A stretch of DNA of 64,000 nt from Pseudobacter ginsenosidimutans (GTDB lineage Bacteria; Bacteroidota; Bacteroidia; Chitinophagales; Chitinophagaceae), in NCBI RefSeq assembly GCF_007970185.1, contig NZ_CP042431.1, positions 7,733,342 to 7,797,341 on the forward strand. The letters run 5' to 3'. Within the stretch, counting starts at the first letter, position 1. Every line of letters starts with the position of its first letter. The notes under the pieces are model-generated. The model had not been told where the DNA came from. It saw only the letters and a program-made list of their open reading frames with translations, and made no database searches. The position numbers were made by a program, and so were the translations under genes. Below, one piece after another: positions 15,116 to 31,156 of the stretch.

Positions 15116-16204
15116 TCATATCTTGAAAAAGATCTTCTTCTTATACAACCACCAGCAAAGCCACCAGTATCCAAAGAGCGTTACCAGCGCTGTAAGCAAC
15201 TGCGCCCACTGTTCTGGTAATACCAAACCAAACAAAGGCATCGTAAATACGGCTACGGCCTTATTGATCCAGGTATAACCCATGATCTCGAAAAGTATAT
15301 AAATGAACAATGAATTCATGCCCACTACCACTGCAATCCAGGCGTACTTATTCCATCCCCCGATATCGGTGATACGATAACAAACAGCCGTCATCAGTAT
15401 CACCAGACCGCCCGATGCCAGTACAAAGGAAGAAGTACAGATCCTTTTGATGATGGGAGAAATACCGGTCAGGTCCAGCCCGAATCCGATAGCCGTAGCA
15501 AGCGCTCCCGCCAGCAGCAGCCATTTCATTTTTTCATTTTCCGTTTTATTGCTGATCAGCAGTTTGCCGGTGCAGCAACCCCAGATGGTATGCGCCGCTG
15601 TTGGAATGAAATTGATGGCTACCCACCCATCGGAATTGGTCTTTCCCATCAATACCAGGTCCATCCAGGTGCCAAAGTTCCGGTGTTCGGTGAAAGGCTG
15701 ATCATATCCGGGGATATTACTGTACCTGTAAGCAAGTTCAGTAATTATAAGCAGTATAACGGATACCAGTACCTGAAATTTAGCTGAACGCTGAATGATC
15801 AGGTAGGCGATCAGTGTGGTGACGGATAATTGCGCCAGCACATTCCAGAGTTCCCATACAGGTTTCTCCGACAGTACGGAATAGATGGCCAGGGCCCAGA
15901 ACAGCAGCCAGACACAACGTTTGAGGATATGCGGCCATTGCTGTTTCCAGCTTTGCCCTTTTTCTTTTTTCCTTGAAAATGCAATGTACATCGCCGCTCC
16001 GGCCATGAACATGAAGGCAGGCTGCACCAGATCCCAGAACCGGAGGCCGTGCCAGGGATGATGGAAAAACTGTTGGGTGATGGCATCCATTGCGGAGCCA
16101 TCGGTGATCGTATGTAAGCTGGTGTATACCGCGGCGCTTTCCGCGGCCAGCAATATCATGATGATGCCGCGCATCACATCCAGGCTAAGCAATCTTCCGT
16201 TCAA
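15116..16204 (-). CDS. DUF5009 / heparan-alpha-glucosaminide N-acetyltransferase-like membrane protein
   Basis: 362 residues, polytopic (about ten hydrophobic helices), starting MNGRLLSLDVMRGIIMILL. The 'R..SLD..RG..i..M' start is the signature of the membrane acyltransferases related to human HGSNAT and bacterial NagX. Also seen are HPWHGLRFWDLVQPAFMFMAG, with a conserved His, and the C-terminal NSLFIYILFE. HGSNAT moves acetyl from cytosolic acetyl-CoA to an amino sugar on the other membrane face. A similar role on an imported amino sugar is possible but unproven. It is the last gene of the LacI-controlled operon, 18 bases after the PKD lipoprotein gene. Confidence 0.8.
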   Translation of the reverse strand: MNGRLLSLDVMRGIIMILLAAESAAVYTSLHTITDGSAMDAITQQFFHHPWHGLRFWDLVQPAFMFMAGAAMYIAFSRKKEKGQSWKQQWPHILKRCVWLLFWALAIYSVLSEKPVWELWNVLAQLSVTTLIAYLIIQRSAKFQVLVSVILLIITELAYRYSNIPGYDQPFTEHRNFGTWMDLVLMGKTNSDGWVAINFIPTAAHTIWGCCTGKLLISNKTENEKMKWLLLAGALATAIGFGLDLTGISPIIKRICTSSFVLASGGLVILMTAVCYRITDIGGWNKYAWIAVVVGMNSLFIYILFEIMGYTWINKAVAVFTMPLFGLVLPEQWAQLLTALVTLFGYWWLCWWLYKKKIFFKI

Positions 16205-16222
16205 AGTATTCAGGGCTTTTGG

Positions 16223-17089
16223 TTATTCAGACATATCCAGGAAAAATGAAGGGGAACCGGTATCAGGCATTGTACCTACAGGTCCGCTCCAGTCGCTCTT
16301 GGTGAGCACCGCGCCGATCTTTACTCCTTTATTCATGAGTCCTTTGATCTTGGAACGGACAAGCCTTCCTTCCACTTTCAGCAGCCCGCCACTTTCCTGC
16401 ACAAATCCCACTTTGTAAAATTCAGTAATGGACTGTTGATCGAAAGTGAATGAGTTCTGTGCGCCCTTGTGATAAAATACATCGAACCAGTCGATCATCG
16501 GAATTCCTTCTATCAAAACATCATTTCCTGCTCCGGCAAATAGCCAGGTGATGAGACCGGTGCCGGAATTATTATCGGAATCAAGATAAAAGTCCCAGAT
16601 ATCACCGGCAGCGATAGTGGTGGCCATTTCAAAATAGAAATAGATATAGTTGCCATCGTAATCGTATTTACCTTTCCTGAATACACCTCCAGCGGGACCG
16701 GAGGTGATGGAATTCACAGCAACAGTATCCCAGTCGCTGAACGAATTATCATCCAGTTTCACCGCAGAGCTTTTTGAAATACGCAATACAGTGGATGCTT
16801 CATAAGTACCGCCATTCTGCATGGTCACATACAAAGTAGGAACATATTTGCCTTTGCCTGCGTAAGTATGAGTGGGATTCTCTTCTGTGGAGCTGGCGCC
16901 ATCGCCGAATTCCCACTTGAAACTTTTAACTCCTTCGGTTTTATTGGTGAACTCCACGGTGTAAGCATCTATGTTGATCTCGAACACCACATCAGGTGCA
17001 GGATCGCTGTCCTTGCTGCAGGCGCCCAGCCCTAACAGGAGCGTTGCTGCCAGCAGGAAATTTTTTATATCGAATTTAGCATTGTTCAT
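16223..17089 (-). CDS. PKD-domain surface lipoprotein
   Basis: 288 residues with signal peptide and lipobox (LLLGLGAC-SKDSDPAPD). A PKD domain follows (about 35-105) with the hallmark FKWEFGDGASSTEENPTHTY. The remaining ~180 residues form a beta-rich domain (DGNYIYFYFEMATT, FYLDSDNNSGTG) that resembles cell-surface carbohydrate-binding modules of PULs, though I cannot name it. It lies 45 bases after susD in the same transcript. Genes in this position usually encode SusE/F-like accessory binding proteins on the outer membrane, so binding of the locus substrate is the likely role (inference). Confidence 0.8.
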   Translation of the reverse strand: MNNAKFDIKNFLLAATLLLGLGACSKDSDPAPDVVFEINIDAYTVEFTNKTEGVKSFKWEFGDGASSTEENPTHTYAGKGKYVPTLYVTMQNGGTYEASTVLRISKSSAVKLDDNSFSDWDTVAVNSITSGPAGGVFRKGKYDYDGNYIYFYFEMATTIAAGDIWDFYLDSDNNSGTGLITWLFAGAGNDVLIEGIPMIDWFDVFYHKGAQNSFTFDQQSITEFYKVGFVQESGGLLKVEGRLVRSKIKGLMNKGVKIGAVLTKSDWSGPVGTMPDTGSPSFFLDMSE

Positions 17090-17134
17090 GACTGATGATT
17101 TGGGATGATTGAATGAATCGCATATCCGTCAACC

Positions 17135-18649
17135 TTAAGGGTTCTGTTCACAAAGTTTGTTGCTCTGGATCTCATCGATAGGAATATAGTAAATGATCCT
17201 GTTGCTGTTCCAGTTTGTGACCAGGTTATTGTAACCTGCCGGTTGTGTGGCCAGGTTGATATCGGTTTCTTTCAACCCGCGCAGGTGGTAGCCCCAGTAA
17301 GTGCGGTTGAGGTTCCGCTTGTTGCGGTACACATCATATACACGATGTCCCTCAAATGCCAGTTCGATCCTTCGTTCTTTTAACACTACATCCAATGCAG
17401 TTCTGCCGGCGGGCAGCGTTCTGTTGTAGAGCGAAGCCTGCAGGCCACGGTTCTTGCGGATCTCATCCACATCATCCAGCGCATCGTTGTTGAGGTTCTT
17501 TTTGGCCTTCGCTTCTGCGCGGTTCAGGTACACTTCAGACAATCTGAACATGATAGGCGAACTAAGGGTTGGGCTTCCACCCTGTCCGCTGAACTTGCTG
17601 ATATAGTAGGTCTCGATACCATTCTTCAGAGCAACACCTCCACTGCCATTGTCGAGTTTCACGATGTATTTCCAGCGTACATCTTCAGGATGTTCAGACA
17701 TGGTATCGCGCAGCGCTTTTGAAGCAAACTCTTCGCCCCAGCCGGAGTTGCCATCGGAAAAGATCATACTGGCGATCGATCCGAATTTCAATTTATCGTC
17801 CACCTGTGTATGTGCGATGCAGAAAATGGTTTCAGAACCACCCATTGCATTGGCGAACAGGGTTTGAAAAGTAGTGGCATTGGTGAGCGTGAATCGGGGA
17901 GAATTGATCACCATATCGGCATATTCGATGGTCTTATCTTCATCATCCATATACAGGTAAGCCCTGGAGAGCAGCGCCCATGCTGCTTCGCGGGAAGCGT
18001 ACTGTACGCCGCGCGATTGCCCCATCAGATCAGCCGCTTTCTTTGCATCATCTATGATACTCGCATATACTTCTGCAACAGTGGCTCTTGCTTTCTGAGC
18101 CGGGTCTCCAACCGAAGTACGGAGAATGATGCCCGGAGCGGAAGGATCATGTGAAAAAGGTTTTGCATACAATCGCACGAGGTTGAAATGGCAAAATGCA
18201 CGCAGAAAATAACATTCGCCGATCAATTGCTGTGTAGCGGCATCAGGACTGGCCATTTTCGATGCAGCTTCGATCACCGTATTGGAATTGTTGATGATCT
18301 TATAATTGATATACCAGAAATAGCGCGTATTGGTCTGCGTGGGTGTATGATCACCGGTAAAACTGAGCAGCAGCGGATCGGTGGTTACCTGTCCGCATAC
18401 GATATCATCGCTGGCAAAATCGGAGAGATGATAGAACTGGCGGAGGTACATCAGTCCATCATCCGGCACTCCATTGAATTCCACATTGTCCTTGAACAAT
18501 GAATAAGCTCCGTTCACGGCGTTCAGCACGCCATCGGGATTATCGGTGAGGTTTCCGGTAGTGATGGCATCCCCGGGCGTTACTTCTTTCAGGCAGCCCG
18601 TGAAAGCGATCAGGGAAACCGATACTATTATGTTGAGTAATGCTTTCAT
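17135..18649 (-). CDS. SusD/RagB-family nutrient-binding lipoprotein
   Basis: 504 residues. The lipoprotein signal is IIVSVSLIAFTGC-LKEVTPGD. TPR-like SusD features include ELAFEGHRVYDVYRNKRN near the C-terminus (the conserved 'ER..EfafEG.R..DliR' motif), RLSEVYLNRAEAKAK and YFLRAFCHFNLVRLYAKPF. It is 11 bases downstream of its SusC partner. It works at the cell surface, delivering substrate to the SusC barrel. It belongs to the LacI-operator-linked locus. Confidence 0.93.
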   Translation of the reverse strand: MKALLNIIVSVSLIAFTGCLKEVTPGDAITTGNLTDNPDGVLNAVNGAYSLFKDNVEFNGVPDDGLMYLRQFYHLSDFASDDIVCGQVTTDPLLLSFTGDHTPTQTNTRYFWYINYKIINNSNTVIEAASKMASPDAATQQLIGECYFLRAFCHFNLVRLYAKPFSHDPSAPGIILRTSVGDPAQKARATVAEVYASIIDDAKKAADLMGQSRGVQYASREAAWALLSRAYLYMDDEDKTIEYADMVINSPRFTLTNATTFQTLFANAMGGSETIFCIAHTQVDDKLKFGSIASMIFSDGNSGWGEEFASKALRDTMSEHPEDVRWKYIVKLDNGSGGVALKNGIETYYISKFSGQGGSPTLSSPIMFRLSEVYLNRAEAKAKKNLNNDALDDVDEIRKNRGLQASLYNRTLPAGRTALDVVLKERRIELAFEGHRVYDVYRNKRNLNRTYWGYHLRGLKETDINLATQPAGYNNLVTNWNSNRIIYYIPIDEIQSNKLCEQNP

Positions 18650-18660
18650 GTGATGATGAT

Positions 18661-21600
18661 TTAGAACCTGAAATTGATGTTGAACAGGAATTGCCTGTTA
18701 TTGGGATACTTGAAATCCGATACACCAGGCGTTGCAAAGGAAGCAGGCGTGATGGTGGTTTGCGGATCCTGACCCACAAAATCCGTGAACGTATGCAGGT
18801 TATCCGCACTCAGCGAAACGGTGATGCCTTCCATCTTCAGTTTGCGCACATAGCTGTCCGGTATACTATAGGAAAGCGTTACGTTGCGGATCTGAAGAAA
18901 ACTGCCATCCATCAGGAAGCGGCTGCTCGTTTCAGTAGAATTGGCCGAATTCTGCGGACTTGGGTTCGTGGCCTTATCGCCGGGCTTCGTCCAGACGCTG
19001 TATCCTGAAGGCAGCACTATCTGATTCAGGTAAGGTTCGGAACCATCATTCATCACAAAGCGAAGATTATTGCTGAACACTTTGTTGCCGTAGAGATAGT
19101 AAGCGTTCACACTAAGTGAAAGATTTTTGTAGCGGAAAGTATTGGTGATACCGCCCTGGAACTTCGGCAGCGCGGAGCCCACTTCCTGGAATGAAGCCAG
19201 CGCATAATCAGAAGTCAGTTCTTTTCCGGTAACATTGCCATCAGCGTCTTTGATCACGCGCTCCCATTGCGGTGCACCGGTCTGTTCATTCACACCCATC
19301 CATTTGGGCATGTAGAACTCATAGAGGTTACCGCCATTGCGATAGATCTGGGAGATGGCCCAGGAGCCGGTCTTGATGATCTCGGCAGGCAGTGCTCTCA
19401 GTTTATTGCTGTTGAAGTTGATATTGAAATCAGTATTCCATTCGAAGTTCCTCGTTTTGATATTGGTGCTGTTGATGCCGATCTCGATTCCCTTGTTCAC
19501 GATCTCGCCCACATTCTCCCATCGCTGCTCAAAGCCCACTGAAAGTGGCTGCGACACCTGCAGCAACAGATCTTTGGTAACGTTATGATAAGCGTCTACC
19601 GTGAGGTTCACCCTGTTGAAGAGACTGATATCCGCACCTACATTGATCTGGTGCTTGCTTTCCCAGGTGAGGTTCGGGCTGGGCAGTTGCAGCGGAACTG
19701 CGCCCACAGCTGAATTATACTGTGCACTCAGAGAATACAAACCGAGGTAACGGGCAGCACCGATATCCTGTGTGCCGGTAACGCCATAGCTTGCACGAAG
19801 TTTCAGGTAATTCACCACATTTTTGATGTTGAAGAAATCTTCATTGCTGGCGATCCATGCGGCAGACACGGAAGGGAAATTCGCGTATTGGTTGCCGGGA
19901 GGAAAATTGGAAGATCCATCCACCCTGAAAGATCCAGTCAGGAAATATTTACCGAGATAATTGTAGTTCACCTGTGAGAGGAACGACTGGATATAAGCTT
20001 CATTTGTGTACCCCTGAACAAGTTGGCTGTTACTCACTACATTCAATACTTTCAAACCGAGCGGCAATCCCTTGCCTGAGCCACCCAGCACTTCAAATTT
20101 GCTGCCTTCATAAGCCACGCCGGCCAGACCACTGATGCCGTGATCACCATATTTGAGATTGAACTTTAAGAGGTTGTTGCTGATGACGCCGTAATTCAGT
20201 GTGCTCAGCTCATCCAGGAAGCCATTGCCATGATAAGTACCGGCAGTGGAAGGTGAAAAGAAATTGGAGCTCTTGTTGTAACCCGCTGCCAGCCTGTTGG
20301 AGCTGGAGAAAGAGAGCCAGGGAGTGATATCCGCATTCAGTGCAAAATCATAGTTCACATCGAAACCTTTGTAAGGGTGATCTGAGTTGTTGATGGTATG
20401 CACGGGGTTGATCTTATCGCGGCTCCACCATTTGAAAGTGGAATTGCCATCTACGTAACGGGGCCTGCCAACGCTGTCGTATGGATTATCCCAGGGCAGG
20501 TTGAGGTATGCATAGTAGATATCCATATAATCGTAACTGTTGCCGGAGGATGCGCTGATATTGATATTGTTGGTAACGCTGATCCATTTGGCAAAGTTGT
20601 GGGTAACGTTGGCGCGCAGGTTAATGCGCTGGAATCCGGTATTCATGAAGGTTCCCTTTTCATTGTAGTAGGAAACACCGGTATAGTAATTCGATTTCTC
20701 TGTGCGGCCTGCAAAGCTCACATAATAGTTTTGCATGAAAGCATTGCTGAAGATCGTGTTCTGCCAGTTGTAGTCCTGGTCGCGGAGACTGAGTGGTCTT
20801 TCAGCATAGAATTTCAGCAGGTCGATCTTGTAGGAATTATCTGATTCACCGGGGATATAATCACGATAGAATTCTTTCTGATAATCGTACAGTTGGTTGC
20901 CATTCATCATTTCCATATTTCCGAAATCCGCTTTGCGGAAGCCGGTAGTGACTTTGGCTTCGAAGCGGTTCCTGCCGGCTTTGGCTTTCTTGGTGGTAAC
21001 GATGATAACGCCTGCATTGGCCTGTGAGCCATACATGGCGGTAGCGCCTGCGTCTTTGAGTACTGTAACGCTTTCCACATCATTGGGGTCATAGTTACCG
21101 CCGATAACCCCGTCCACCACAAAGAGCGGGCTCTGGGATGCATTTACGGAAGAGATGCCGCGGAGCCTGATCTCAGGCGCAGCACCGGGAACACCCGAAG
21201 CAGCCACTACCTGGAGACCTGCCACTTTACCCTGCAGCATATTGCCGATATTGTTGGTGGTTACATCTTTCAATTTTTCAGAGCTCACCACAGTAACGGC
21301 GCTGGTAAGCTCGCCTCTTTTTTTGTTGTTGTAACCTACAACGATCACTTCACCCAGCTCTGCATCATTCTTGCTGAGCCTGATAATTACTTCCCTGTTG
21401 TTGGGACTTACTTCCACTTCAATGGGAGCATAGCCGATAGAAGTAGCGAGCAGTGTGAATTTTTCGGCGGGCACCCGGAGCGTGAAATTGCCGTTGTCGT
21501 CGGACTGGGTGCTTGTTGTGCCGGAGCTTTTAACGGAAACAGTAACGCCGGCGAGGGGTTGTCTGCCGGCTGCATCGATTACCCTGCCTGTAATTGTGCG

Positions 21601-21669
21601 TTCCTGCGCTGATAACGCAGAACTGCATAACACAAGCAACATAACCAGTAGTGTTTTGCAAGTGGACAT
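18661..21669 (-). CDS. SusC/RagA-family TonB-dependent receptor of the LacI-linked locus
   Basis: About 1002 residues from MSTCKTLLVMLLVLCSSALSAQ. The frame stays open upstream to 21756, but the signal peptide fixes the start at 21669. The carboxypeptidase-regulatory-like domain (ITGRVIDAAGRQPLAGVTVSV) is followed by the plug: EVIVVGYNNKKRGELTSAVT, LFVVDGVIGG, TVLKDAGATAMYGSQANAGV. The C-terminus NNRQFLFNINFRF is a typical barrel end. The plug lists GSQANAGVIIVTTKK, where most SusC proteins have GSRGANGVILITTK. It imports the locus substrate with energy from TonB. It has its own copy of the locus operator 82 bp upstream, so it may be transcribed both from the operon promoter and on its own. 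Confidence 0.93.
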   Translation of the reverse strand: MSTCKTLLVMLLVLCSSALSAQERTITGRVIDAAGRQPLAGVTVSVKSSGTTSTQSDDNGNFTLRVPAEKFTLLATSIGYAPIEVEVSPNNREVIIRLSKNDAELGEVIVVGYNNKKRGELTSAVTVVSSEKLKDVTTNNIGNMLQGKVAGLQVVAASGVPGAAPEIRLRGISSVNASQSPLFVVDGVIGGNYDPNDVESVTVLKDAGATAMYGSQANAGVIIVTTKKAKAGRNRFEAKVTTGFRKADFGNMEMMNGNQLYDYQKEFYRDYIPGESDNSYKIDLLKFYAERPLSLRDQDYNWQNTIFSNAFMQNYYVSFAGRTEKSNYYTGVSYYNEKGTFMNTGFQRINLRANVTHNFAKWISVTNNINISASSGNSYDYMDIYYAYLNLPWDNPYDSVGRPRYVDGNSTFKWWSRDKINPVHTINNSDHPYKGFDVNYDFALNADITPWLSFSSSNRLAAGYNKSSNFFSPSTAGTYHGNGFLDELSTLNYGVISNNLLKFNLKYGDHGISGLAGVAYEGSKFEVLGGSGKGLPLGLKVLNVVSNSQLVQGYTNEAYIQSFLSQVNYNYLGKYFLTGSFRVDGSSNFPPGNQYANFPSVSAAWIASNEDFFNIKNVVNYLKLRASYGVTGTQDIGAARYLGLYSLSAQYNSAVGAVPLQLPSPNLTWESKHQINVGADISLFNRVNLTVDAYHNVTKDLLLQVSQPLSVGFEQRWENVGEIVNKGIEIGINSTNIKTRNFEWNTDFNINFNSNKLRALPAEIIKTGSWAISQIYRNGGNLYEFYMPKWMGVNEQTGAPQWERVIKDADGNVTGKELTSDYALASFQEVGSALPKFQGGITNTFRYKNLSLSVNAYYLYGNKVFSNNLRFVMNDGSEPYLNQIVLPSGYSVWTKPGDKATNPSPQNSANSTETSSRFLMDGSFLQIRNVTLSYSIPDSYVRKLKMEGITVSLSADNLHTFTDFVGQDPQTTITPASFATPGVSDFKYPNNRQFLFNINFRF

Positions 21670-21750: not shown

Positions 21751-21766
21751 ACACAAACGGTTGTGT
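21751..21766. promoter_or_regulatory. LacI-type operator before susC (fifth copy)
   Basis: ACACAAACGGTTGTGT differs by one base from the perfect palindrome found in the two other intergenic regions of the locus. It lies between the Gfo/Idh gene stop and the susC start, on the upstream side of susC. This single site would let the regulator control the transport genes separately from the enzyme genes. Confidence 0.75.
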
Positions 21767-21788: not shown

Positions 21789-23144
21789 TTAAACGCCGAA
21801 ATCCCTGCTCAGGCCAAATACCGGCGTACGCTGCTTCCATTTACCCCGTGTGAAATCCGGGATCAGTACCGGCTTTGATCTTTGCGCGATCGACCGCTCC
21901 GACAACGGGCTCAGCACACTCCACATGGCGGCATCATAGATATCCATCAGGAGAGCTTTCTTATGTAACACACAATCAACAAACTCGCGGATGATGAAAT
22001 AGTCCATCCCTCCATGGCCGGAGGAATTGGCCACTGCATCATACCTGCTCCAGTAAGGATGATCAAATTCCCTGATATAGTTTTCAACGGGCTCGTATTC
22101 ATGCGGCTTCGGGCTTCGTTGTTGCAGATACACACCCTGCGCTTCGTCCGTCCAGATACCTTCCGTTCCCTGGATACGGAAGCCTAGTGAATAGGGCCTG
22201 GGACTGGAAGTATCGAAAGTCATCTTGATCACTTCACCATTGGCGCATTGGATCAGTGAAGTGACCACATCCCCGCATTTGAATTTCACTTTTGCATTCG
22301 GATGGCCGGCACCGCCCTTCTGCACAATATAATTATGCAGGCTTGCCGAAGGCGATGCCATTGCCACCATCTGTGTGAACTGATTTCCTCTTGTGATGTT
22401 CAGCATATTGGCAACCGGACCGATCCCGTGTGTGGGATAGAGATCGCCATTTCTATCAATATAATGTTGAGTACGCCAGCGTGCCTCATTGATTCCCTTA
22501 TCACCAAACTCCACTCCACCCCCGATCATGTTCATGCCATCATTGAAGAGCACTTCCCGGAGATCGTGCTGATAGCCGCATTCAGCATAGGTGATCTGTC
22601 CGAACAATCCCTGCCGCGCCATATTGAGCATCGCCATCACATCACGGCGATAACAGACATTCTCCAGCATCATATAGGGAGCTCCGGTCTTTTCCTGCAC
22701 ATTCACCAGTTCCCAGATCTCAGCTACAGTAAGTCCCGATAATACTTCGCAACCGGTGTACTTTCCTGCTTTCATACTGGACACAGACATGGGAAGATGC
22801 CATTCCCAGGGAGTGGAGATGATCACAGCTTCCACATCATCCCTTTCTACAATTTTTTCGAAATCCTTTTCACCTGTATAGTATTGCGGATCTTTCAATC
22901 CGTGATCTTTCATGATCTTTTTTACATTATCGATGGCCTTTGGATCGATGTCTGCAATGGCCACGATATTGCTATTGCCCTGCTTCACCGTTTCCAGCAG
23001 CAGTCCTGCACCACGCATGCCCACGCCAATAAAGGCAAGACCAGCTTTCTTATCAGTATGGAACACTGATTTACCCGTTTGAGGAAGCAGGGTAACACCT
23101 GCGCTGAGTGCGGCCATACGGGTGAGGAATTTTCTTCTTTGCAT
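21789..23144 (-). CDS. Exported Gfo/Idh/MocA-family protein, GH109-like
   Basis: 451 residues. The N-terminus MQRRKFLTRMAALSAGVTLL is a Tat signal. The NAD-binding Rossmann motif is AGLAFIGVGMRGAGLL. The segments MMLENVCYRRDVMAMLNMAR and PTHGIGPVANMLNITRG resemble the GH109 branch (NAD-dependent alpha-N-acetylgalactosaminidases) more than ordinary sugar dehydrogenases. GH109 enzymes use tightly bound NAD for an oxidation-elimination hydrolysis, which fits periplasmic export with a bound cofactor. It could instead be an exported oxidoreductase. It lies between the dipeptidase and susC genes in the LacI-linked operon, so it probably acts on imported oligomers in the periplasm. The GH109 assignment is by motif memory, not alignment. 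Confidence 0.78.
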   Translation of the reverse strand: MQRRKFLTRMAALSAGVTLLPQTGKSVFHTDKKAGLAFIGVGMRGAGLLLETVKQGNSNIVAIADIDPKAIDNVKKIMKDHGLKDPQYYTGEKDFEKIVERDDVEAVIISTPWEWHLPMSVSSMKAGKYTGCEVLSGLTVAEIWELVNVQEKTGAPYMMLENVCYRRDVMAMLNMARQGLFGQITYAECGYQHDLREVLFNDGMNMIGGGVEFGDKGINEARWRTQHYIDRNGDLYPTHGIGPVANMLNITRGNQFTQMVAMASPSASLHNYIVQKGGAGHPNAKVKFKCGDVVTSLIQCANGEVIKMTFDTSSPRPYSLGFRIQGTEGIWTDEAQGVYLQQRSPKPHEYEPVENYIREFDHPYWSRYDAVANSSGHGGMDYFIIREFVDCVLHKKALLMDIYDAAMWSVLSPLSERSIAQRSKPVLIPDFTRGKWKQRTPVFGLSRDFGV

Positions 23145-23175: not shown

Positions 23176-24258
23176 TCAGGACCAGGCTTTGCGCAGGAAG
23201 CGAAGCCAGTTCCTGTAAAAGATATTTTCGATGTCTTCCTGGTTGTAGCCGCGCTGACGCAACATTGGCGCGAGTCCCTGAAGATCTGCGATCGAATCCA
23301 TCTCGTATGGCGCCTGTTCTTTTCCGAACATGCCGTCCAGGTCGCTGCCGATGGCAATGTGCAGGCTGTTGCCGGCGAGCTGACAGATATGATCGTAATG
23401 ATCAATGAGCTTGTGCAGGTTTACATTTTCTTGTTTGGGATCGGAAATGCCGCGCTGCCAGTTATTGGTGAGCATCCAGGTATCCAGTACACCGCCGATC
23501 ACGGCATCACGCTCTATCAGTGCTTTGATCTGATCGTCCGACAATTGCCGTTGGTGCTGCACCAGTTTGCGGGTGTTATGATGACTGGCCCATACAGGCC
23601 CTTTGAAGATCTGCAGCGCCTGATCAAAACCCTCATCCGTGAGATGGGTAACGTCCAGGATCATGCGCAGGTTATCCATTTCCCTTACCAGTTCTTTTCC
23701 CATTGCAGTGAGCGGGCCTTCCATACCAGTTCCCGGCGCATATCGGCCGGGACCGTAATGTGCAGGCCCCAATGCACGAAGGCCGTAAGCATAAGCTCTT
23801 TCGAGATAGCTCAGGTTGATGAGAGAGTCCGCCCCTTCAAGACTGAGGATATACCCGATCTTCTTTGATGAATCAGGTATTTGTTCATCTTCCCAGTATG
23901 ACAGATGTGCTTCCAGTGCATTCAGGTTGCGGATCTGTATCATCTCATCAGCGGCTTCCATGGCTTTGTACCAGGCAAGCTGTCCCTGGGTTTGAGCCCA
24001 TGCCTGTTCGGGTGAGTGCCATCCGGGCAGCGTACTGTTTCGATCTACATACCGGGCGATCTGCGTGGCTACTACCAACCCCACCCTTCCCTTGCGCAGT
24101 TCAGGTAGGGATACCATTCCTTTAGCGCGATCGAGTTTGTCTGTTTGGCCTTCTTCGCGCTTGCGCAATTCCTTAACCGGCTCACGCAGGTTACGGTTCC
24201 ATTCAAGGGCATTCATGGCAAGGTCGAGATGCGCGTCAATGATCAAAGGTGATTGCAT
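23176..24258 (-). CDS. M19-family (membrane/renal-type) dipeptidase
   Basis: 360 residues without a signal peptide. Metal ligands of the amidohydrolase-fold M19 family are visible: IIDAHLDLAMN (His-x-Asp), EGADSL (bridging Glu), DVTHLTDEG, ASHHNTRKL and AIGSDLDGMF. Known members split dipeptides, often with a D-residue at the C-side, and some act on beta-lactams or other amides. Its start codon lies one base after the stop of the preceding dehydrogenase gene, showing tight coupling. Within a sugar-type locus it suggests the substrate carries an amino-acid or amide bond (inference). Confidence 0.9.
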   Translation of the reverse strand: MQSPLIIDAHLDLAMNALEWNRNLREPVKELRKREEGQTDKLDRAKGMVSLPELRKGRVGLVVATQIARYVDRNSTLPGWHSPEQAWAQTQGQLAWYKAMEAADEMIQIRNLNALEAHLSYWEDEQIPDSSKKIGYILSLEGADSLINLSYLERAYAYGLRALGPAHYGPGRYAPGTGMEGPLTAMGKELVREMDNLRMILDVTHLTDEGFDQALQIFKGPVWASHHNTRKLVQHQRQLSDDQIKALIERDAVIGGVLDTWMLTNNWQRGISDPKQENVNLHKLIDHYDHICQLAGNSLHIAIGSDLDGMFGKEQAPYEMDSIADLQGLAPMLRQRGYNQEDIENIFYRNWLRFLRKAWS

Positions 24259-24259: not shown

Positions 24260-25261
24260 TCAGATGGAAGCTTGTTGTTTTACGGCCAATTGTTTTTTTA
24301 CGATGTCAGCAGGATAACGAAGGGCCAGTTCACGAATCTCATAACTGAAACGGATGAACGTTTCTTCCCAGAGCTTTGCCTCTTCGGGTGTGTATTCATA
24401 AAATCCTTTGGCATTGGCCACTCCACGGCCTCCTTCTTTCACTACTTTATCTATGAGTTCAGGTACTTCCTGGTTATTACTGAGAGTGGGAAAGAGATCT
24501 TTCATAACGGTATGATAAGCAGGCACACCTGTCAGATCCATCCAGCGGAAGATGCCCACTAACGTCATCCAGTAGCCGGCATTGTTGCGGCAGGCGCGGT
24601 CCACATCTTCGATGGTGGCATAACCGTTCTCCACCAGGTGGAAGCCTTCCCGATACATCGCATACATGAGACGGTTAGTGATGAAGCCACGGATATCTTT
24701 CCTAACCAGTGTGGGCTCCTTGCCCCATTGTTGCGATATTTCGTAGAGCTGTTCTCCCTTGCTCACATCGCTTTGCTCCCCGCAGATCACTTCGAGGAAA
24801 CGGGTAGTATGCGAGGGTTCAGCCCAATGCAGCCCAAAGAAGCGTTCAGGGTATAGCGTATGCTGTTGCAGGATGCTGATGGGAATAGCGGAGGTATTAC
24901 TGCACAGTAAAGCTTCCGGAGCAATCACTGATTCTATTTTTTTATACACCGATTCTTTGATGGGTAAATTCTCTATCGTGCATTCGATCACCAGTCCGCA
25001 ATCAGACAACAATCCATAATCTTCCGTAATGGTAAGCTGCTCAAAAAAATGACCCGGCGGAAATGGCGTCAGCTTCTCTTCCCTCGATGTCTGCAAATGT
25101 TCATGTATCCTGTTGGACGCATGTTTGAGATCATCTTTCAAAGGCGCTAAGGCAACAACAGAATGACCGGCCATCAGTAGGCAGGTGGTGATGCTGCAAC
25201 CCATCAAACCCAATCCCACAACGCCAACCAACATTTTCTGCGAATCAAGCATTTGTTCCAT
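24260..25261 (-). CDS. 3-hydroxyacyl-CoA dehydrogenase-family NAD-dependent dehydrogenase
   Basis: About 333 residues from MEQMLDSQKMLVGVVG. Reading further upstream would run into the RidA gene and adds no conserved sequence. The Rossmann motif is VGVVGLGLMGCSITTCLLMAG. ECTIENLPIKESVYKKIE and LCSNTSAIPIS match the 3HCDH N-domain, and FGLHWAEPSH and FITNRLMYAMYREGFHLVENG match the C-domain. Family members oxidise 3-hydroxyacyl-CoAs or, in the L-gulonate dehydrogenase branch, free 3-hydroxy sugar acids. The sugar-acid setting here makes the second option attractive (inference). It lies 26 bases after ridA. Confidence 0.87.
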   Translation of the reverse strand: MEQMLDSQKMLVGVVGLGLMGCSITTCLLMAGHSVVALAPLKDDLKHASNRIHEHLQTSREEKLTPFPPGHFFEQLTITEDYGLLSDCGLVIECTIENLPIKESVYKKIESVIAPEALLCSNTSAIPISILQQHTLYPERFFGLHWAEPSHTTRFLEVICGEQSDVSKGEQLYEISQQWGKEPTLVRKDIRGFITNRLMYAMYREGFHLVENGYATIEDVDRACRNNAGYWMTLVGIFRWMDLTGVPAYHTVMKDLFPTLSNNQEVPELIDKVVKEGGRGVANAKGFYEYTPEEAKLWEETFIRFSYEIRELALRYPADIVKKQLAVKQQASI

Positions 25262-25287: not shown

Positions 25288-25677
25288 TTATCGGGGTTTC
25301 CGCGCAATGGCATCGATCTCTACCTTGATATTGTAGCCAAGCCCGGATTGTACTGTAGTGCGTGCAGGTTTCACGCCGCTGAACCATTTGGAATATTCCT
25401 GGTTGAAGCCAGCGAATAAATTGATATCAGACAAATGCACATTGCATTTCACGATATCATTCATGGTGCATCCCGCTGCACGGAGAATACTTTCGATATT
25501 GTGCATGGTGAGCTTTGTTTCTTCTTCGATGCTTCCCAGCTTGAATTCACTGGTGGTGAAATCGATAGGCCCCTGCCCGCTTACATAAACCCAGCCATCG
25601 ATTTCCACAGCTGCCGAATAAGCGCCGGTTGTAAAGCCTTTCCCGGCATTCTCCGGGTGAATGATCTCCTGTTTCAT
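25288..25677 (-). CDS. RidA (YjgF/YER057c/UK114) family protein
   Basis: 129 residues, the full family length. GAYSAAVEIDGWVYVSGQGPID is the classic RidA segment, and the C-terminal Arg of the active site is in KPARTTVQSGLGYNIKVEIDAIA. Housekeeping RidA hydrolyses reactive enamine/imine intermediates to keto acids plus ammonia. Paralogues inside catabolic operons usually do the same on a pathway intermediate. Its place next to a dipeptidase and sugar-acid enzymes suggests the pathway passes through an amino or imino acid (inference). Confidence 0.92.
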   Translation of the reverse strand: MKQEIIHPENAGKGFTTGAYSAAVEIDGWVYVSGQGPIDFTTSEFKLGSIEEETKLTMHNIESILRAAGCTMNDIVKCNVHLSDINLFAGFNQEYSKWFSGVKPARTTVQSGLGYNIKVEIDAIARKPR

Positions 25678-25717: not shown

Positions 25718-26581
25718 TCATTCTGCCATCACATTCTCAGTATATCCCAGTTGTTCGATCTCTGTTCTCACAATATCTCCGGGTATCAGCCAGTTCTTTT
25801 CCGGCAATCCCATGATCACGCCTTCGGGCGTACCGGTGAGAATGAGATCTCCCGGACTGAGCGTCATATAGCGGCTCAGCTCTTCGATGATAACGGCCAC
25901 GGAAAAGATCATATCGCGGGTATTGGAATGCTGACGGATGATGCCATTGCGATAACATTTCAGTTCCAGTTGCTGCGGATCGGGGATCTCATCGGCAGTA
26001 ACCAGGTATTGCCCAAGCGGCAGGAACTTATCAGGTGTTTTTCCGATCAGCCACTGCGATGTTTTGAATTGCAGATCGCGGCAACTCAGGTCATTGGCTA
26101 CACAATACCCGAAAACATACTGCAATGCGTTTTCTCTTTTTACATTTTTACATTCCGTACCTATCACCACGCCCAGCTCCACTTCATAATCGAACTGCAC
26201 ACCTGCATTGCCCAGCGGAACTGCTTCACCGAAATCAGTCAGTGTATTGTTGAATTTGGAAAACACAACCGGGGATTCGGGAATGGGCATATTGCTTTCG
26301 ATGGCATGTTTCCTGTAATTAAGACCAATGCAAATGATCTTTCCCGGATTTGGCACACAGCTCGCAACCTGCAACGAAGAAAGGGGTAACAGGAATTCAG
26401 GAAACTCCTTCGCCTTAACCATCAACTCACGGAGTGCAGGCAGGGCCTCATTCCTGAGCGGACTGCCATTGAATGCCGCTTGCCCGTTCCGTTGCCGGTA
26501 TGCGTCCGCGTCTATAACCCCGGACTCAGTGATGATGCCCGGATGTAACTGTCCTTGTTTTTTGAAGTATGCTATTTTCAT
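25718..26581 (-). CDS. Fumarylacetoacetate hydrolase (FAH) family protein
   Basis: 287 residues. The FAH catalytic fold is seen from IICIGLNYRKHAIESNMPIPE through VQFDYEVELGVVIGTECK (metal-binding Glu pair) to the typical GDLILTGTPEGVIMG. This branch (N-terminal KIAYFKKQGQLHPG) includes the 2,4-diketo-3-deoxy-L-fuconate/rhamnonate hydrolases, which split a diketo sugar acid into pyruvate plus a small hydroxy acid, as well as enzymes mis-annotated as ureidoglycolate lyase. An SDR gene directly upstream (16-base gap) is the expected partner, making the diketo acid. The exact substrate is not readable from sequence. Confidence 0.9.
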   Translation of the reverse strand: MKIAYFKKQGQLHPGIITESGVIDADAYRQRNGQAAFNGSPLRNEALPALRELMVKAKEFPEFLLPLSSLQVASCVPNPGKIICIGLNYRKHAIESNMPIPESPVVFSKFNNTLTDFGEAVPLGNAGVQFDYEVELGVVIGTECKNVKRENALQYVFGYCVANDLSCRDLQFKTSQWLIGKTPDKFLPLGQYLVTADEIPDPQQLELKCYRNGIIRQHSNTRDMIFSVAVIIEELSRYMTLSPGDLILTGTPEGVIMGLPEKNWLIPGDIVRTEIEQLGYTENVMAE

Positions 26582-26596: not shown

Positions 26597-27337
26597 TCAG
26601 TAAGTGGCACGACCTCCGGACAGGTCGAAAGTGAATCCGGTGGTGAAACTGTTCTGCGGAGAAACGATATAAATGGCGATGCCTGCAGCTTCTTCGAGTG
26701 TGCCACAACGTTTCATCGGTATCTTGTCGGTCATATACTTCACCTGTTCCTCCGGCATCGCATCTACCAGCGCCGTGCGAATCACGGCAGGCGCCAGTGC
26801 ATTCACAGTGATACCCGTTTCTGCATATTCCTTTCCCTGCACTTTGGTCATGCCGATCACGGCTGCCTTGGATGCGGAATAAGCCAGCATGCCTGCATTA
26901 CCTTCCTTTCCTGCAATACTGGCCACATGCAGCACACGACCATAATTATTGCGCAGCATCCAGGGCAGAGCATATTTGGAAGTATGATAACTACCCATGA
27001 AATTCACCTCGAATACAGTTCGCAGGTTAGCGGATTCCACCAGGTGACTTTTGGTATTGGTGATACCGGTAATGCCGGCGCTGTTCACCAGTATATCGAT
27101 GCGGCCATACTGATTGCCGGTAGCATCCATCAGTAATTGAACAGCCTGCTCATCAGTGATATCGATGGCATGTCTGCTGGCATCCAGCTGATCGGTGGCC
27201 TGCAACAAAAGCTCCTGGTTCTTATCGATCAATACCAGTTTCACTTTATATTGCGCTAACTGCTGTGCTATTGCTAAACCCAGTCCGGATGCGGCTCCGG
27301 TGATCACCGCCACCTGGTTCTCAAAATTCAGGTCCAT
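26597..27337 (-). CDS. Short-chain dehydrogenase/reductase (SDR), first gene of the catabolic operon
   Basis: About 246 residues from MDLNFENQVAVITGAASGLG. An upstream in-frame Met at 27382 would place the start nearly inside the operator region and adds an unconserved tail. The cofactor motif is TGAASGLG. The catalytic set is NSAGITG, the Ser around ASIAGKEGN and YSASKAAVIGMTK (Tyr-x-x-x-Lys). The C-terminus GFTFDLSGGRATY is of the 'G....vdGG' type. With the FAH-type hydrolase behind it, it may act as a 2-keto-3-deoxy-sugar-acid dehydrogenase (compare LRA5/LRA6 of the non-phosphorylated rhamnose/fucose route). That role is inference. Two operators stand directly upstream. Confidence 0.9.
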   Translation of the reverse strand: MDLNFENQVAVITGAASGLGLAIAQQLAQYKVKLVLIDKNQELLLQATDQLDASRHAIDITDEQAVQLLMDATGNQYGRIDILVNSAGITGITNTKSHLVESANLRTVFEVNFMGSYHTSKYALPWMLRNNYGRVLHVASIAGKEGNAGMLAYSASKAAVIGMTKVQGKEYAETGITVNALAPAVIRTALVDAMPEEQVKYMTDKIPMKRCGTLEEAAGIAIYIVSPQNSFTTGFTFDLSGGRATY

Positions 27338-27390
27338 AGAAGATAATTGTGTTGATGCAAAATACAGGTCTCCCCGATCCAAAATTTTTG

Positions 27391-27428
27391 CAACCGGTTG
27401 TCTGAAATTATTTTACACAACCGGTTGT
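27391..27428. promoter_or_regulatory. Pair of LacI-type operators between SDR operon and LacI gene
   Basis: CAACCGGTTG at 27391-27400 and ACAACCGGTTGT at 27417-27428 have centres 27 bp apart. They lie 54 bp before the SDR start and 85 bp before the LacI start, so binding could repress both the enzyme operon and the regulator gene. A central CG/CCGG palindrome is typical of LacI-family operators. Confidence 0.85.
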
Positions 27429-27512: not shown

Positions 27513-28544
27513 ATGGAATCCAGGAAAACAACAATAGTAGACATTGCCAAACAACTGAATATCTCCAAGTCCACCGTGTCCCGGGCGCTCAGCAATCATG
27601 CCAGCATCGGGCTAAGGACAAAGATGCGGGTGCAGCAACTGGCGGCTGAACTCAACTATGAGCCCGACCTCACCGCCATCAATTTCAAACAACGAAAGAA
27701 ATTCCTGCTGGGTGTTGTATTGCCATCCATCTCTCATGAGTTCTTCTCTTCCATCGTCAGCGGCATCGAAGATGTTGCGTATAACAAGAATTATACTTTG
27801 TTGCTCGGACAATCACGCGATGATGAAGGCCGTGAAAAAAGAATTGTGGAAACGATGAAAGACCACCGTGTAGATGGTATGCTGATCTCCATCTCCAAGA
27901 ACACCACCAATTATGATCACTTTGAAATGTTGCGGAAGAACAAGATCCCTGTTGTGTTCTTCGACAGGATCCCCAACATGAACAATATCCATTACATCGC
28001 CAGTCAGCTGGAATCTGGCATGAGAGAAGCAGTGAACTTCCTGGTAAGAAAAGGACATAAGCATATCGCCCTCATCAATGGTCCAACCAATCTGCCTGCC
28101 AGCAAAGAGCGTTTACAGGGTTTCGAAAATGCGTTGAAGAAGAACCGCATCAAACCCAACCCCGATTATGTTGTATATTCTGATCTCACACAGGAAGGGA
28201 ATATTGCTGCCACGCATTCCCTGCTATCCCTGAAACGAAGGCCTGACGCCATTATCGCATTCAATGATTATGTAGCAATGGATGCCATCCAGCAGGCGAA
28301 AAAAGCAAAAGTGAAAATCAATAAAGATATCTGCTTCATCAGTTTTGCCAATGAAGCTATCTGTAATTATATGGACCATCCGCCGATGGCCAGCATCGAA
28401 CAGTTCCCTTATCAGCAGGGAGAAAAAGCCACGGAGATCTTATTGAACCTGCTGGAAAGTCCTGCGGCCGAAGCCGATGAACAGGAACCTACTTACCACA
28501 ATATCCTGCTGCCTTCACAGCTGGTGGTTCGTATCAGTAAATAA
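27513..28544 (+). CDS. LacI-family transcriptional regulator of the catabolic locus
   Basis: 343 residues from MESRKTTIVDIAKQLNISKS, preceded by AGAGGGA. The frame is open for 106 more codons upstream, but that part runs through the operators and the divergent SDR start and is not protein-like. The N-terminal LacI headpiece (IVDIAKQLNISKSTVSRALS) is followed by a hinge helix and a periplasmic-binding-protein-like effector domain (LGVVLPSISHEFFSSIVSGIED, VVFFDRIP, ALINGPTNLPASKERLQGF). It should bind the five palindromes of the locus. The effector is presumably a monomeric breakdown product. Confidence 0.93.
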   Translation: MESRKTTIVDIAKQLNISKSTVSRALSNHASIGLRTKMRVQQLAAELNYEPDLTAINFKQRKKFLLGVVLPSISHEFFSSIVSGIEDVAYNKNYTLLLGQSRDDEGREKRIVETMKDHRVDGMLISISKNTTNYDHFEMLRKNKIPVVFFDRIPNMNNIHYIASQLESGMREAVNFLVRKGHKHIALINGPTNLPASKERLQGFENALKKNRIKPNPDYVVYSDLTQEGNIAATHSLLSLKRRPDAIIAFNDYVAMDAIQQAKKAKVKINKDICFISFANEAICNYMDHPPMASIEQFPYQQGEKATEILLNLLESPAAEADEQEPTYHNILLPSQLVVRISK

Positions 28545-28578
28545 CTAACATACAAACCGTTGATATTCCAACGGTGCT

Positions 28579-28621
28579 ACACAACCGGTTGTGTGAAAAA
28601 AAATCACACAACCGGTTGTGT
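28579..28621. promoter_or_regulatory. Pair of perfect LacI-type operators before the beta-helix gene
   Basis: ACACAACCGGTTGTGT occurs at 28579-28594 and again at 28606-28621, centres 27 bp apart, the same spacing as the pair at 27391-27428. They precede the beta-helix gene by 100 bp. Just downstream, TTTG (28624-28627) and TATTTTGG (28646-28653), 18 bp apart, resemble the Bacteroidota -33/-7 promoter, so the second operator abuts the -33 element. The promoter match is loose. Confidence 0.88.
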
Positions 28622-28720
28622 TTTTTGTGAATTGATGTTATTGGCTATTTTGGTATCAGCAGCACTTCTCCTACCCATCAGGTCACTTCACATTCGTTCA
28701 TCAAACAAAAAATCTATGTT

Positions 28721-31156
28721 ATGAAATTTACGATTTCTGTGATCCTTTGTTTCCTGCTGGCAGGCAGCGTCACGCAGGCAGCTCCAAGAGAGTACTATGT
28801 TGATATCAATGCGCCCACCATGGGTGATGGTTCCATCGGCAGCCCCTGGAACGATCTCACCGCCGCCATTTACTGGTGGGGCAATGTAGACAGTACCGAT
28901 GTAATTGTACATCTCCGCGCAGGCACTTACACACTCGCTGCGGGAACTCCCATCTATATCGGTGCAGACCGCAGCGGTAACAGCGGACATTATTTCATCC
29001 TGAAAGCTTACAATAATGAACAAGTGATCATCGACGGTTCATTGCAAACAGCAGCTTTCTCCAGCCTGGTTAGTATCGTGAATGCGAAGTATGTCAGGCT
29101 TCAGGGACTTACCTTCGCCAATCTCAATGGCATCACGGGATTTGGCGTTTTCATGAGCGGTAAATGCCAGCACGTTGAATTACAGGATTGCACTTTTTCC
29201 AACATGAGCTGGAACACCGATCACTCTGAAGCCAAATATCCAACCGGCGCAGATTATATGGTGCCTGTTCGTATTCATGGAGACAGCTCCACTGCGCTCT
29301 CCGATATTGCGATCAACAATACCACCTTCAATACTATCGCACCGGGTGTTGGCGATCTGGTGCTGGTTTCAGGAAATACAAGCAATATCACACAGACCAA
29401 CAACTCGCTGGTGAATATTATCCGTCAACAACCAAGAACAGAATTCTATGTGAGCAATGCCGGAAGCGATGCTACAGGCAACGGCTCCAAAGCCAATCCC
29501 TGGAAAACACTCAGCTTTGCGCTTAATGTTGCAGGTTATGATTTCTCTACCATTCCCGCTACTCTGCTGGATTCCAACCTGACTATCTATCTCCGTGAAG
29601 GAACTTATTACCCCGTTACCAATGGTTACTGGATCGGCGACAATCGTGGCGCCAATGGCAAATGGCTTACCATCAAAAATTATGGAACAGAAACTGTGGT
29701 AATCGATGGCAGCCAGCTCACCGCCAAATATGCATTCATCTTCGCTATCTCCGGCGCCAAATACATCCGCATAGACGGATTGAATATCGGGAACCTCGAA
29801 AATGATTCCACGCTCAGTTCCGGTGGCCTGAAAGATGTTCGCTATGGTATCATCGTAACCGGCGCAGCAGGTTATATAGATATCCGCAATAATGATATCT
29901 ACAATATGTACTGGAGCAGGGATACCAATAAGATCAAGAATCCCGGTCCCACGGATGTACTCAGCGCTATCAGCGTTCTGGGCACCACCAACATACCCAT
30001 CACGCATCTCAATATCGAGAACAATACGGTGCATGATATTGTGCCTGGCTATGCAGAAGCCATCGCCATTAACGGCAACGTGGATACTTTCAGCGTGATC
30101 GGCAATGAAGTGTATGATATCGCCAATATCGGTATCGTATCTGCCGGCAATTACAAGTGGGTACTGGCTAACAATCCCGGGTTACTGCCGGTCAATAACC
30201 AGTCGAGGAATGGCCTGATAAAAGACAATGAAGTTTACAGGTGTTTATCACCGATAGCAATATCAGCAGGGATCTATCTCGATGGCTCTAAGAATATCAC
30301 TGTAGAAGGAAATGAAAGCTATCTCAATGGTGTAGGTATCTCTGTGGGTAATGAACAGGACAGTAGCGTTGGTACGGGGCATCTCGTGAAAGAGAATACT
30401 TTGTATCATAATCTTGGTTCAGGTATTTATATCGGTAGCAATAATTTTTCTTCAAAGGTTACCAACAGTGTGATCAAATGGAATAGTATCCAGAACAACT
30501 ACCATATTGATTCTACCTTGTATCGCCGTACACAGGGAAGGTATGGTATTCTCAATCCTGCTAACCGCTGGGCGGAGATCGTTGTGAACCGCGCCGAGAA
30601 TATCACCTTTGAAGAAAATGAGATCACATCATTATCCGATATTATGTCCGCCTTTGTATTCGGACAAACCGGCCTGGTATTCCGGTATAATGAATACTTC
30701 ACTGCATCCAATGATCCCTGTAATGTTTATTTTGTGAGAGATACCACCAATGATGGCGTTCCCGATGTGTTCTACAATACTTTCCATATGTATGCGAAGA
30801 AGATGAATATCGATAAAACATCTACGCTGGGCGGAGTTGCCTACAATTCATCCGGCTGCGGAACAGCGTTGCTGGCGGCGCCTCCGAAAGAAGCAACATT
30901 GGAAGTAAGCAGTTTCCCCAACCCTGTGACCGATAAACTGGGCATTCGCATCGTGCAATCCAAAGCCGGTACGGTACAGGCAAGCTTGTTTGATCTGAGT
31001 GGCAGACTGGTGATGACGCAAACAAAACAATTGCCTGCTGGCGTTCAATTCCTGGGATGGAATAATCTCAAACAACAACAGCTGATTCCAGGTGTGTACC
31101 TTTTGCATGTGAAGTCGAATGATAAGAAAGAAGTATTGAAAGTATTGGTGAGATAA
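28721..31156 (+). CDS. Secreted right-handed parallel beta-helix protein with T9SS sorting domain
   Basis: 811 residues with a Sec signal peptide (MKFTISVILCFLLAGSVTQA). Two copies of a lyase-like unit follow. One begins REYYVDINAPTMGDGSIGSPW and the other EFYVSNAGSDATGNGSKANPW; each has 'HLRAGTYTL'/'YLREGTYYP' and the repeating 'I...N.I.n' rungs of a polysaccharide-lyase-type beta-helix. The last ~75 residues (VSSFPNPVTDKLGIRIVQ ... PGVYLLHVKS) are a type A type IX secretion C-terminal domain, so the protein is released to or anchored on the surface. It probably binds or cleaves the polymer fed to the locus. The catalytic residues are not identifiable by eye. It sits directly behind two LacI operators. 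Confidence 0.87.
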   Translation: MKFTISVILCFLLAGSVTQAAPREYYVDINAPTMGDGSIGSPWNDLTAAIYWWGNVDSTDVIVHLRAGTYTLAAGTPIYIGADRSGNSGHYFILKAYNNEQVIIDGSLQTAAFSSLVSIVNAKYVRLQGLTFANLNGITGFGVFMSGKCQHVELQDCTFSNMSWNTDHSEAKYPTGADYMVPVRIHGDSSTALSDIAINNTTFNTIAPGVGDLVLVSGNTSNITQTNNSLVNIIRQQPRTEFYVSNAGSDATGNGSKANPWKTLSFALNVAGYDFSTIPATLLDSNLTIYLREGTYYPVTNGYWIGDNRGANGKWLTIKNYGTETVVIDGSQLTAKYAFIFAISGAKYIRIDGLNIGNLENDSTLSSGGLKDVRYGIIVTGAAGYIDIRNNDIYNMYWSRDTNKIKNPGPTDVLSAISVLGTTNIPITHLNIENNTVHDIVPGYAEAIAINGNVDTFSVIGNEVYDIANIGIVSAGNYKWVLANNPGLLPVNNQSRNGLIKDNEVYRCLSPIAISAGIYLDGSKNITVEGNESYLNGVGISVGNEQDSSVGTGHLVKENTLYHNLGSGIYIGSNNFSSKVTNSVIKWNSIQNNYHIDSTLYRRTQGRYGILNPANRWAEIVVNRAENITFEENEITSLSDIMSAFVFGQTGLVFRYNEYFTASNDPCNVYFVRDTTNDGVPDVFYNTFHMYAKKMNIDKTSTLGGVAYNSSGCGTALLAAPPKEATLEVSSFPNPVTDKLGIRIVQSKAGTVQASLFDLSGRLVMTQTKQLPAGVQFLGWNNLKQQQLIPGVYLLHVKSNDKKEVLKVLVR

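Follow-up and report, generated by a model that had tools for sequence, protein, structure and literature searches.

We analysed a 64,000-nt stretch of the genome of Pseudobacter ginsenosidimutans, a member of the Chitinophagaceae (contig NZ_CP042431.1, positions 7,733,342 to 7,797,341; referred to as the window) that carries an uptake and catabolic locus between positions 15116 and 31156 (Table 1). The host genome has a size of 7.8 Mb and is nearly complete. Genes for a LacI-type repressor and a protein with a type IX secretion system (T9SS) tail are on the plus strand, while the minus strand carries SDR, FAH, RidA, 3HCDH, M19, GH109, SusC, SusD, PKD and NagX-like genes in this order. All open reading frames (ORFs) named in an original prediction, which had been made from the letters of the DNA, are present and intact, and their families were assigned with hidden Markov models (HMMs) of Pfam and NCBIfam.

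Table 1. Genes and predicted operators of the locus, with positions in the window
Feature	Position	Strand	Basis and remarks
NagX/HGSNAT-like membrane protein (DUF5009)	15116..16204	-	PF16401; NF046061 120 bits, cut-off 480
PKD-domain lipoprotein	16223..17089	-	PF18911; missing from the original prediction
SusD-like lipoprotein	17135..18649	-	PF07980, PF14322
SusC-like TonB-dependent transporter	18661..21669	-	PF07715, PF13715; ORF opens at 21756, ATG 21669
Degenerate LacI-type operator CACAAACGGTTGTG	21752..21765		before susC (ATG 21669); one mismatch
Exported GH109 protein (alpha-N-acetylgalactosaminidase family)	21789..23144	-	PF21252, E = 6.4e-81, 270.6 bits
Peptidase_M19 protein	23176..24258	-	PF01244, E = 1.4e-55, 189 bits, cut-off 26; proposed N-acyl amino-aldonate deacylase
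3-Hydroxyacyl-CoA-dehydrogenase-fold enzyme (3HCDH)	24260..25261	-	PF02737/PF00725; nearest solved structure 4om8
RidA enamine/imine deaminase family	25288..25677	-	PF01042, E = 6.5e-29; TIGR00004 106.3 bits, cut-off 106.25
FAH-family hydrolase, LRA6/HpcE-like	25718..26581	-	PF01557, E = 1.2e-67
SDR NAD(P)-dependent dehydrogenase	26597..27337	-	PF13561, E = 1.3e-49; first gene of the operon
Tandem LacI-type operators	27390..27428		divergent LacI/SDR intergenic region; 27 bp apart
LacI-family repressor	27513..28544	+	PF00356 and Peripla_BP; ORF opens at 27195, LacI homology from ATG 27513
Tandem LacI-type operators ACAACCGGTTGT	28581..28619		before the T9SS gene; starts 27 bp apart
Secreted beta-helix protein with T9SS C-terminal tail	28721..31156	+	Por_Secre_tail, E = 1.4e-8

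With adjacent susC and susD genes, a lipoprotein, an exported glycosidase and a regulator, the locus resembles a SusCD-type polysaccharide utilization locus (PUL), but it adds a cytoplasmic oxidative and amide branch. The PKD lipoprotein adjoins SusCD also in the loci L041, L060, and L107. The glycosidase possesses a Rossmann domain (PF01408, 24.7 bits; cut-off 24) next to its C-terminal domain, aligns with the solved GH109 enzyme 2ixa over residues 27-449 of 451 (E = 2.6e-140), and retains E149, Y225, and H228 of 2ixa, which we take to be the catalytic residues. Judged by these domains and active-site residues, it is a member of GH109; comparison with 2ixa and 6t2b revealed nothing that would exclude membership, and alpha-N-acetylgalactosaminidase activity is predicted. 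Its N-terminus appears twin-arginine-like by eye, and no signal peptide is visible by eye on the M19 protein. In the 3HCDH protein, the Rossmann motif GLGLMG and the residues His145 and Glu157, presumably the catalytic pair, are intact; its substrate is probably a non-CoA hydroxy acid. The substrates of the SDR and 3HCDH enzymes cannot be read from their HMM or PDB matches. The NagX-like protein scores below the curated value for NagX glucosamine N-acetyltransferases (Table 1).

The best NCBIfam model for the FAH protein is that of the 2,4-didehydro-3-deoxy-L-rhamnonate hydrolases (NF053535) at 217.2 bits, below the curated cut-off of 500, and it matches the solved structures 1gtt (E = 2.9e-57) and 8gsr (E = 8.2e-51). 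An FAH protein closer to this model (337 bits) occurs together with RidA, M19 and a pyridoxal phosphate (PLP) enzyme in a genome of a different family (L207:10488-11654). Structure prediction of the T9SS protein yielded a parallel beta-helix (mean pLDDT, the predicted local confidence score, 71.6). In a Foldseek search it matched 3-dehydroshikimate (DHS) dehydratase 8wm1 best, followed by BT_1002, GH136, and rhamnogalacturonan lyase chains, all at low template-modelling (TM) scores; because these are generic helix matches (TM-score to the query of at most 0.34 among the 50 matches listed), we did not assign a family from the fold.

The original prediction had merely asserted control by LacI; conserved predicted operators now support it. 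The 175-bp gap between the LacI and SDR genes contains two copies of the palindrome ACAACCGGTTGY, 27 bp apart, and a second such pair precedes the T9SS gene. When one mismatch was allowed, we found 10 matches in the window, counted strand-wise so that each palindrome is scored on both strands, compared to 0.44 expected; none of 100 shuffled sequences reached ten. The exact pattern occurs at five sites in the whole host genome: the two tandem pairs and one site before a PEP (phosphoenolpyruvate)-synthase-like gene. The reversed pattern, used as a control, was not found in the host genome and gave one to four matches per strand in six of the 11 other genomes. Nine of the ten LacI/SDR intergenic regions compared retain the 27-bp pair (in L070 with the second site changed to CAATCGATTG), and L060 is without it. 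L058, L080, and L098, in which LacI is partial or does not adjoin, were left out of this comparison; the contig of L080 (G065:C78) has a 27-bp pair and the genome of L058 has no site at all. Genomes G004, G002, and G061 resemble the window in having a second pair at a distance of about 1.1-1.2 kb; G061 is the genome of L107, whose T9SS gene sits beyond LacI. Conserved palindromic predicted operators thus stand at the promoters of the enzyme operon and the T9SS gene, whose predicted control by LacI is well supported at the sequence level; that of susC, with its degenerate site, is less so. The lone operator-like site is positioned about 120-130 bp before the PEP-synthase-like gene in the host (G000:C1:7651440) and in one close congener (L155, L156). 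We did not accept it as firm regulon evidence since it is absent from G002 and from six further upstream regions. Single sites in relatives were likewise rejected as regulon members: seven of those listed lie inside long ORFs and the reversed pattern gives 0-4 matches per strand across the 12 genomes, and we therefore regard them as background.

The genes of the locus belong together. Synteny with G004 extends over the whole block, and with G002 it runs up to the end of the contig inside the PKD gene; the 3HCDH protein of Pseudoflavitalea rhizosphaerae KACC 18655 is 94% identical to that of the window. To follow the block further, we used the best 80 of 375 3HCDH loci from an alignment scan of a one-genome-per-species collection (84,980 species); L066 is labelled as Alphaproteobacteria and the remainder as Bacteroidota or unclassified. 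Among the 73 loci with sufficient flanking DNA, an SDR gene ends at most 1.5 kb upstream of 3HCDH in 30 and an M19 gene begins no more than 400 bp downstream of it in 24; 16 loci combine both arrangements. Seven of the 80 loci have a Rid gene no farther than 5 kb away on the same strand, and many loci possess none of these neighbors. Two Chitinophaga loci (L060, L107) carry T9SS, LacI, SDR, RidA, 3HCDH, M19, SusC, SusD, and PKD genes without FAH and GH109, with L060 additionally encoding a NagX-like protein (57% identity); three metagenome-assembled genomes and a Terrimonas strain (L084, L088, L093, L123) have LacI, SDR, 3HCDH, M19, and GH109 without RidA. The expectation that the enzymes are conserved together consequently holds for SDR, 3HCDH, M19, Rid, LacI, SusCD, and the T9SS protein; it fails for FAH, which is present in only two of the 80 loci, both from congeners. 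We therefore rejected FAH as the defining feature of the locus, and the cleavage of a diketo acid, which had been placed at the center of the original pathway, is at best a genus-level add-on.

The key to the function of the locus is the M19 protein. It matches the family HMM, and H10, D12, E141, H205, H226, R237, and D306, which we take to be its metal- and carboxylate-binding residues, are invariant in an alignment of 81 proteins (three duplicates had been removed beforehand). A search of relatives delimits a distinct clade, with 58-100% identity over the full length vs. at most 42% over partial lengths for other M19 proteins; in a sample of the phylum, 41 of 395 genomes have a match at E <= 1e-60, and the identity of these members falls as low as 43%. 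We inspected 59 M19 loci, comprising 20 of the 22 clade matches from the relatives and 39 of the 45 from the phylum sample; the window itself, the short contig G034:C459, three duplicates already included, G269, G330, and G319 were left out. A Rid gene lies on the same strand within 7.5 kb of M19 in 48 of these loci and in eight of nine families (0/3 loci in f27, 1/4 in f29). The six genomes checked for PF01042 gave 2-6 matches apiece, so that proximity by chance should be on the order of 1%; we give no p-value because the loci are related (25 of the 59 come from f1 and 10 from f24). Further neighbors are a PLP enzyme of the PF01168 plus PF14031 type (34 loci), GntP (20), GH20 (14), and a KdgK-like PfkB kinase (10). 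GntP and 3HCDH genes (20 and 11 loci, respectively) co-occur in none of the 59 loci, which is only a hint at exclusivity because L073 has both and the rows are related. SDR, 3HCDH, and the PLP enzyme accompany M19 in L073 and L191.

The most informative arrangement is found in a genus designated g64 (L195, L198, L200, L201, and L203), where genes for SusC, SusD, GntP, Rid, a KdgK-like kinase, a 2-keto-3-deoxy-6-phosphogluconate (KDPG) aldolase, the PLP enzyme, M19, and GH20 lie on one strand. L195 has a DeoR regulator between M19 and GH20; its PfkB, Aldolase, PLP, GntP, GH20, and DeoR assignments were confirmed with Pfam. M19 is the sole amide-hydrolase family found in this run, and the end product should be 2-keto-3-deoxygluconate (KDG), as far as the gene families predict. 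The host of the window has an M19 paralogue in a related setting, GH20-Rid-KdgK-like-M19 (L031, G000:C1:1732500-1752400; the PfkB protein scores below the curated cut-offs), which is a candidate N-acetylglucosaminate locus. In view of the KdgK-like kinase, KDPG aldolase, and GH20 neighbors, we rejected a plain dipeptidase function across the clade. The original reading of M19 as a dipeptidase is probably wrong; the context fits an N-acyl amino-aldonate deacylase.

That no standard system has such a gene set, as had been stated, was too strong since the ong pathway follows the same logic. In oxidative chitin utilization by Pseudoalteromonas prydzensis, N-acetylglucosaminate is deacetylated by OngB and deaminated to KDG by the PLP enzyme OngC, and KDG is phosphorylated by KdgK, as knock-outs and assays showed; the RidA-family protein OngD is essential, its role being called unknown by the authors, and the cluster is reported from Gammaproteobacteria and one Betaproteobacterium (PMC9537276). 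OngB, a GlcNAc1A (N-acetylglucosaminate) deacetylase, represents a new family of de-N-acetylases that are relatives of the D-aminoacylases, as a second report describes (PMC12017989). The terms "Bacteroid" and "M19" are absent from the main texts of both papers, and among the literature matches listed we did not find a Bacteroidota or M19 version of this route. The window shares with ong the Rid-family protein (its RidA, a PF01042 member, corresponds to OngD) and, by inference, an amide hydrolase followed by deamination to a 2-keto-3-deoxy acid without prior phosphorylation, TonB-dependent import across the outer membrane, repressor control, and an exported N-acetylhexosamine (HexNAc) glycosidase. 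It differs in having M19 instead of the D-aminoacylase-like OngB, GH109 instead of GH20, and LacI instead of RpiR, in the extra SDR, 3HCDH, and FAH enzymes, in its Bacteroidota host, and in the lack of OngC, KdgK, and an SSS transporter in the locus and of an AA10 lytic polysaccharide monooxygenase (LPMO) in the genome. An OngB-type deacetylase is not among the locus proteins, and an OngB search of the remaining genome was not made; the M19 protein, for which we propose the substrate class and step of OngB, matches only Peptidase_M19 (PF01244) in Pfam. Like OngB, M19 proteins are expected to be metal-dependent barrel hydrolases. In the g64 loci, the step set is that of ong, with M19 in the place of OngB and GntP in that of the transporter; M19 can hence be proposed as a non-homologous replacement of OngB there, for which we see a somewhat better than even chance. 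The window would represent a diverged variant that applies this chemistry to a different N-acyl hexose acid; its GH109 protein, nearest to 2ixa, points to alpha-linked N-acetylgalactosamine (GalNAc).

From the observed genes, synteny, operators, and linkage we infer each reaction of the following route. The T9SS beta-helix protein may attack or bind the glycan outside the cell; SusCD and the PKD lipoprotein would import it, and the exported GH109 enzyme would free HexNAc, which the NagX-like protein at the inner membrane may acetylate or move. The SDR and 3HCDH enzymes, both NAD enzymes, could then oxidize HexNAc in either order to a 2-acylamino aldonate, from which the cytoplasmic M19 protein would remove the acyl group in OngB's stead. 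A PLP deaminase of the D-serine-dehydratase type, encoded outside the locus, would form a 2-keto-3-deoxy acid and ammonia together with RidA, and in the genus of the window, FAH may cleave this acid to pyruvate and a C3 acid, perhaps after oxidation by the SDR. We thus read the locus, at an even chance, as a LacI-repressed PUL for an alpha-linked N-acetylhexosamine glycan, most likely of the GalNAc type, with ong-type, non-phosphorylative catabolism of the amino-sugar acid. The original view of one coherent LacI regulon with an acid-type route is upheld, and GH109 and the NagX-like protein beside M19 and Rid support its idea of a substrate that combines a sugar with an amide or amino group.

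Several observations weigh against this reading. By Pfam, the locus proteins include no deaminase, no 2-keto-3-deoxy-acid or KDG kinase, and no inner-membrane sugar permease. An OngC-like PLP fold-type III deaminase is missing from the locus; in favor of the proposed route, however, the host has a single PF01168 plus PF14031 protein elsewhere, next to GntP (G000:C1:3482924, L132), and such an enzyme was found in all 13 genomes examined. The AA10 LPMO family (PF03067) is absent from all 13, the host included (one of 14 control genomes was positive), and these bacteria therefore do not make C1-oxidized chitin by themselves via AA10. A Bacteroidota species, Aquimarina muelleri, does possess an AA10 LPMO; the accessible text of that report mentions no catabolic genes alongside it (PMC10535946). 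Rid is missing in 11 of the 59 M19 loci, among them L034 with its GH109 gene, and GH109 itself is present in only three. The KdgK-like, KDPG-aldolase, and PLP proteins score below the curated NCBIfam cut-offs, and nearly all solved M19 relatives are named dipeptidases. In a tree of the 81 M19 proteins, most of the 3HCDH- or aminotransferase-linked proteins, including that of the window, stand apart from most of the GntP-, KdgK-, or PLP-linked ones (support 82/97, short of the starred level; exceptions are L073, L036, and L207). The two sets (33 and 32 rows) are distinguished by four alignment positions, of which three lie one or two residues away from the conserved His205, His226, and Arg237; the substrate in the window may therefore differ more than we assume. 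Furthermore, L035, L039, and L043, members of the window's M19 group, combine M19 with a class-III aminotransferase and no recognized glycosidase. Our confidence stays at the even level because of the missing deaminase, kinase, and permease, the lack of AA10, the unassigned activity of the beta-helix protein, and these aminotransferase contexts.

The dipeptidase names among solved M19 structures, the alpha-GalNAcase 2ixa as the reference for GH109, and the reported ability of OngC to deaminate also D-serine and D-threonine (PMC9537276) would all suit a glycopeptide locus. GH109 would then strip alpha-GalNAc from mucin-like Ser/Thr glycopeptides, M19 would genuinely act as a dipeptidase, and the released hydroxy-amino acids would be processed by RidA and the dehydrogenases. 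We consider this unlikely: a dipeptide does not explain GH20, the KdgK-like kinase, and the KDPG aldolase beside the other M19 group, and no endopeptidase family is represented in Pfam searches of the locus proteins.

The diketo-type L-rhamnose/L-fucose sugar-acid route favored by the original prediction, in which SDR and FAH would form the core and M19 and RidA would have side functions, appears improbable to us. The L-rhamnose diketo-hydrolase pathway employs LRA5 and LRA6; an adjacent SDR and FAH pair is indeed present in the window, LRA6 and HpcE-type proteins come closest to its FAH, and, as a weak point, the lone operator before the PEP-synthase-like gene of the host and its close congener would fit pyruvate as a product. 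However, SDR-3HCDH-M19 persists in loci without FAH, FAH itself falls short of its curated cut-off, and neither a rhamnose dehydrogenase nor a lactonase or aldonate dehydratase was seen in the locus. Equally doubtful is a non-sugar substrate, an N-acyl hydroxy-amino compound, for whose use glycan genes would have been recruited in some Chitinophagaceae only. A class-III aminotransferase together with 3HCDH and M19 in L035, L039, L043, L177, L183, and L192 would fit this explanation, as would the ceramidase-like gene (PF04734) of L035, which has relatives in L039, L043, and L177; against it stand the glycan-type contexts with LacI of the window, L060, L070, L107, and the GH109 loci, and the SusC-like genes within about 10 kb in L039 and L043.

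Some neighboring genes deserve mention. In L035 (8498-9445), L036, L039, and L043, a second 3HCDH paralogue beside M19 reads GLNW or GANW in place of the GLHW motif, having lost the histidine, and its Rossmann motif is partly lost as well; it is probably not an ordinary dehydrogenase. Downstream of GH109 in L034 (5850-8195), a 782-aa protein without a Pfam match at E <= 0.001 may be a glycosidase. Adjoining the T9SS gene of the window, an acetyl-CoA hydrolase/transferase gene (PF13336; 31312-32622, minus strand) is kept in both congeners; its product could act on released acetate. On the other side, a PhyH-type dioxygenase gene (PF05721; 13933-14718, minus strand) lies downstream on the same strand as the NagX-like gene and is also present in the congener L032, with a PhyH-like ORF detected by eye in L043; between this gene and the NagX-like gene, a small lipoprotein-like ORF (14893-15060, plus strand; about 55 codons) is read from the opposite strand.

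Bacteroidota are important degraders of chitin and other glycans. We tentatively suggest, at less than even confidence, that they own an independently assembled pathway for N-acetyl amino-aldonates, with the M19 clade as a new family of carbohydrate de-N-acylases: one lineage would use GlcNAc1A, while in that of the window NAD enzymes would convert free GalNAc to the aldonate intracellularly and the route would end in C-C hydrolysis without a phosphorylated sugar intermediate. If this clade does deacylate amino-sugar acids, many annotations of M19 genes, currently read as dipeptidases, would change. The oxidative amino-sugar route, reported from Gammaproteobacteria and one Betaproteobacterium (PMC9537276), would extend to the Bacteroidota, and Rid proteins would gain a testable role. 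A LacI regulon with defined predicted operators offers a setting in which substrates can be screened.

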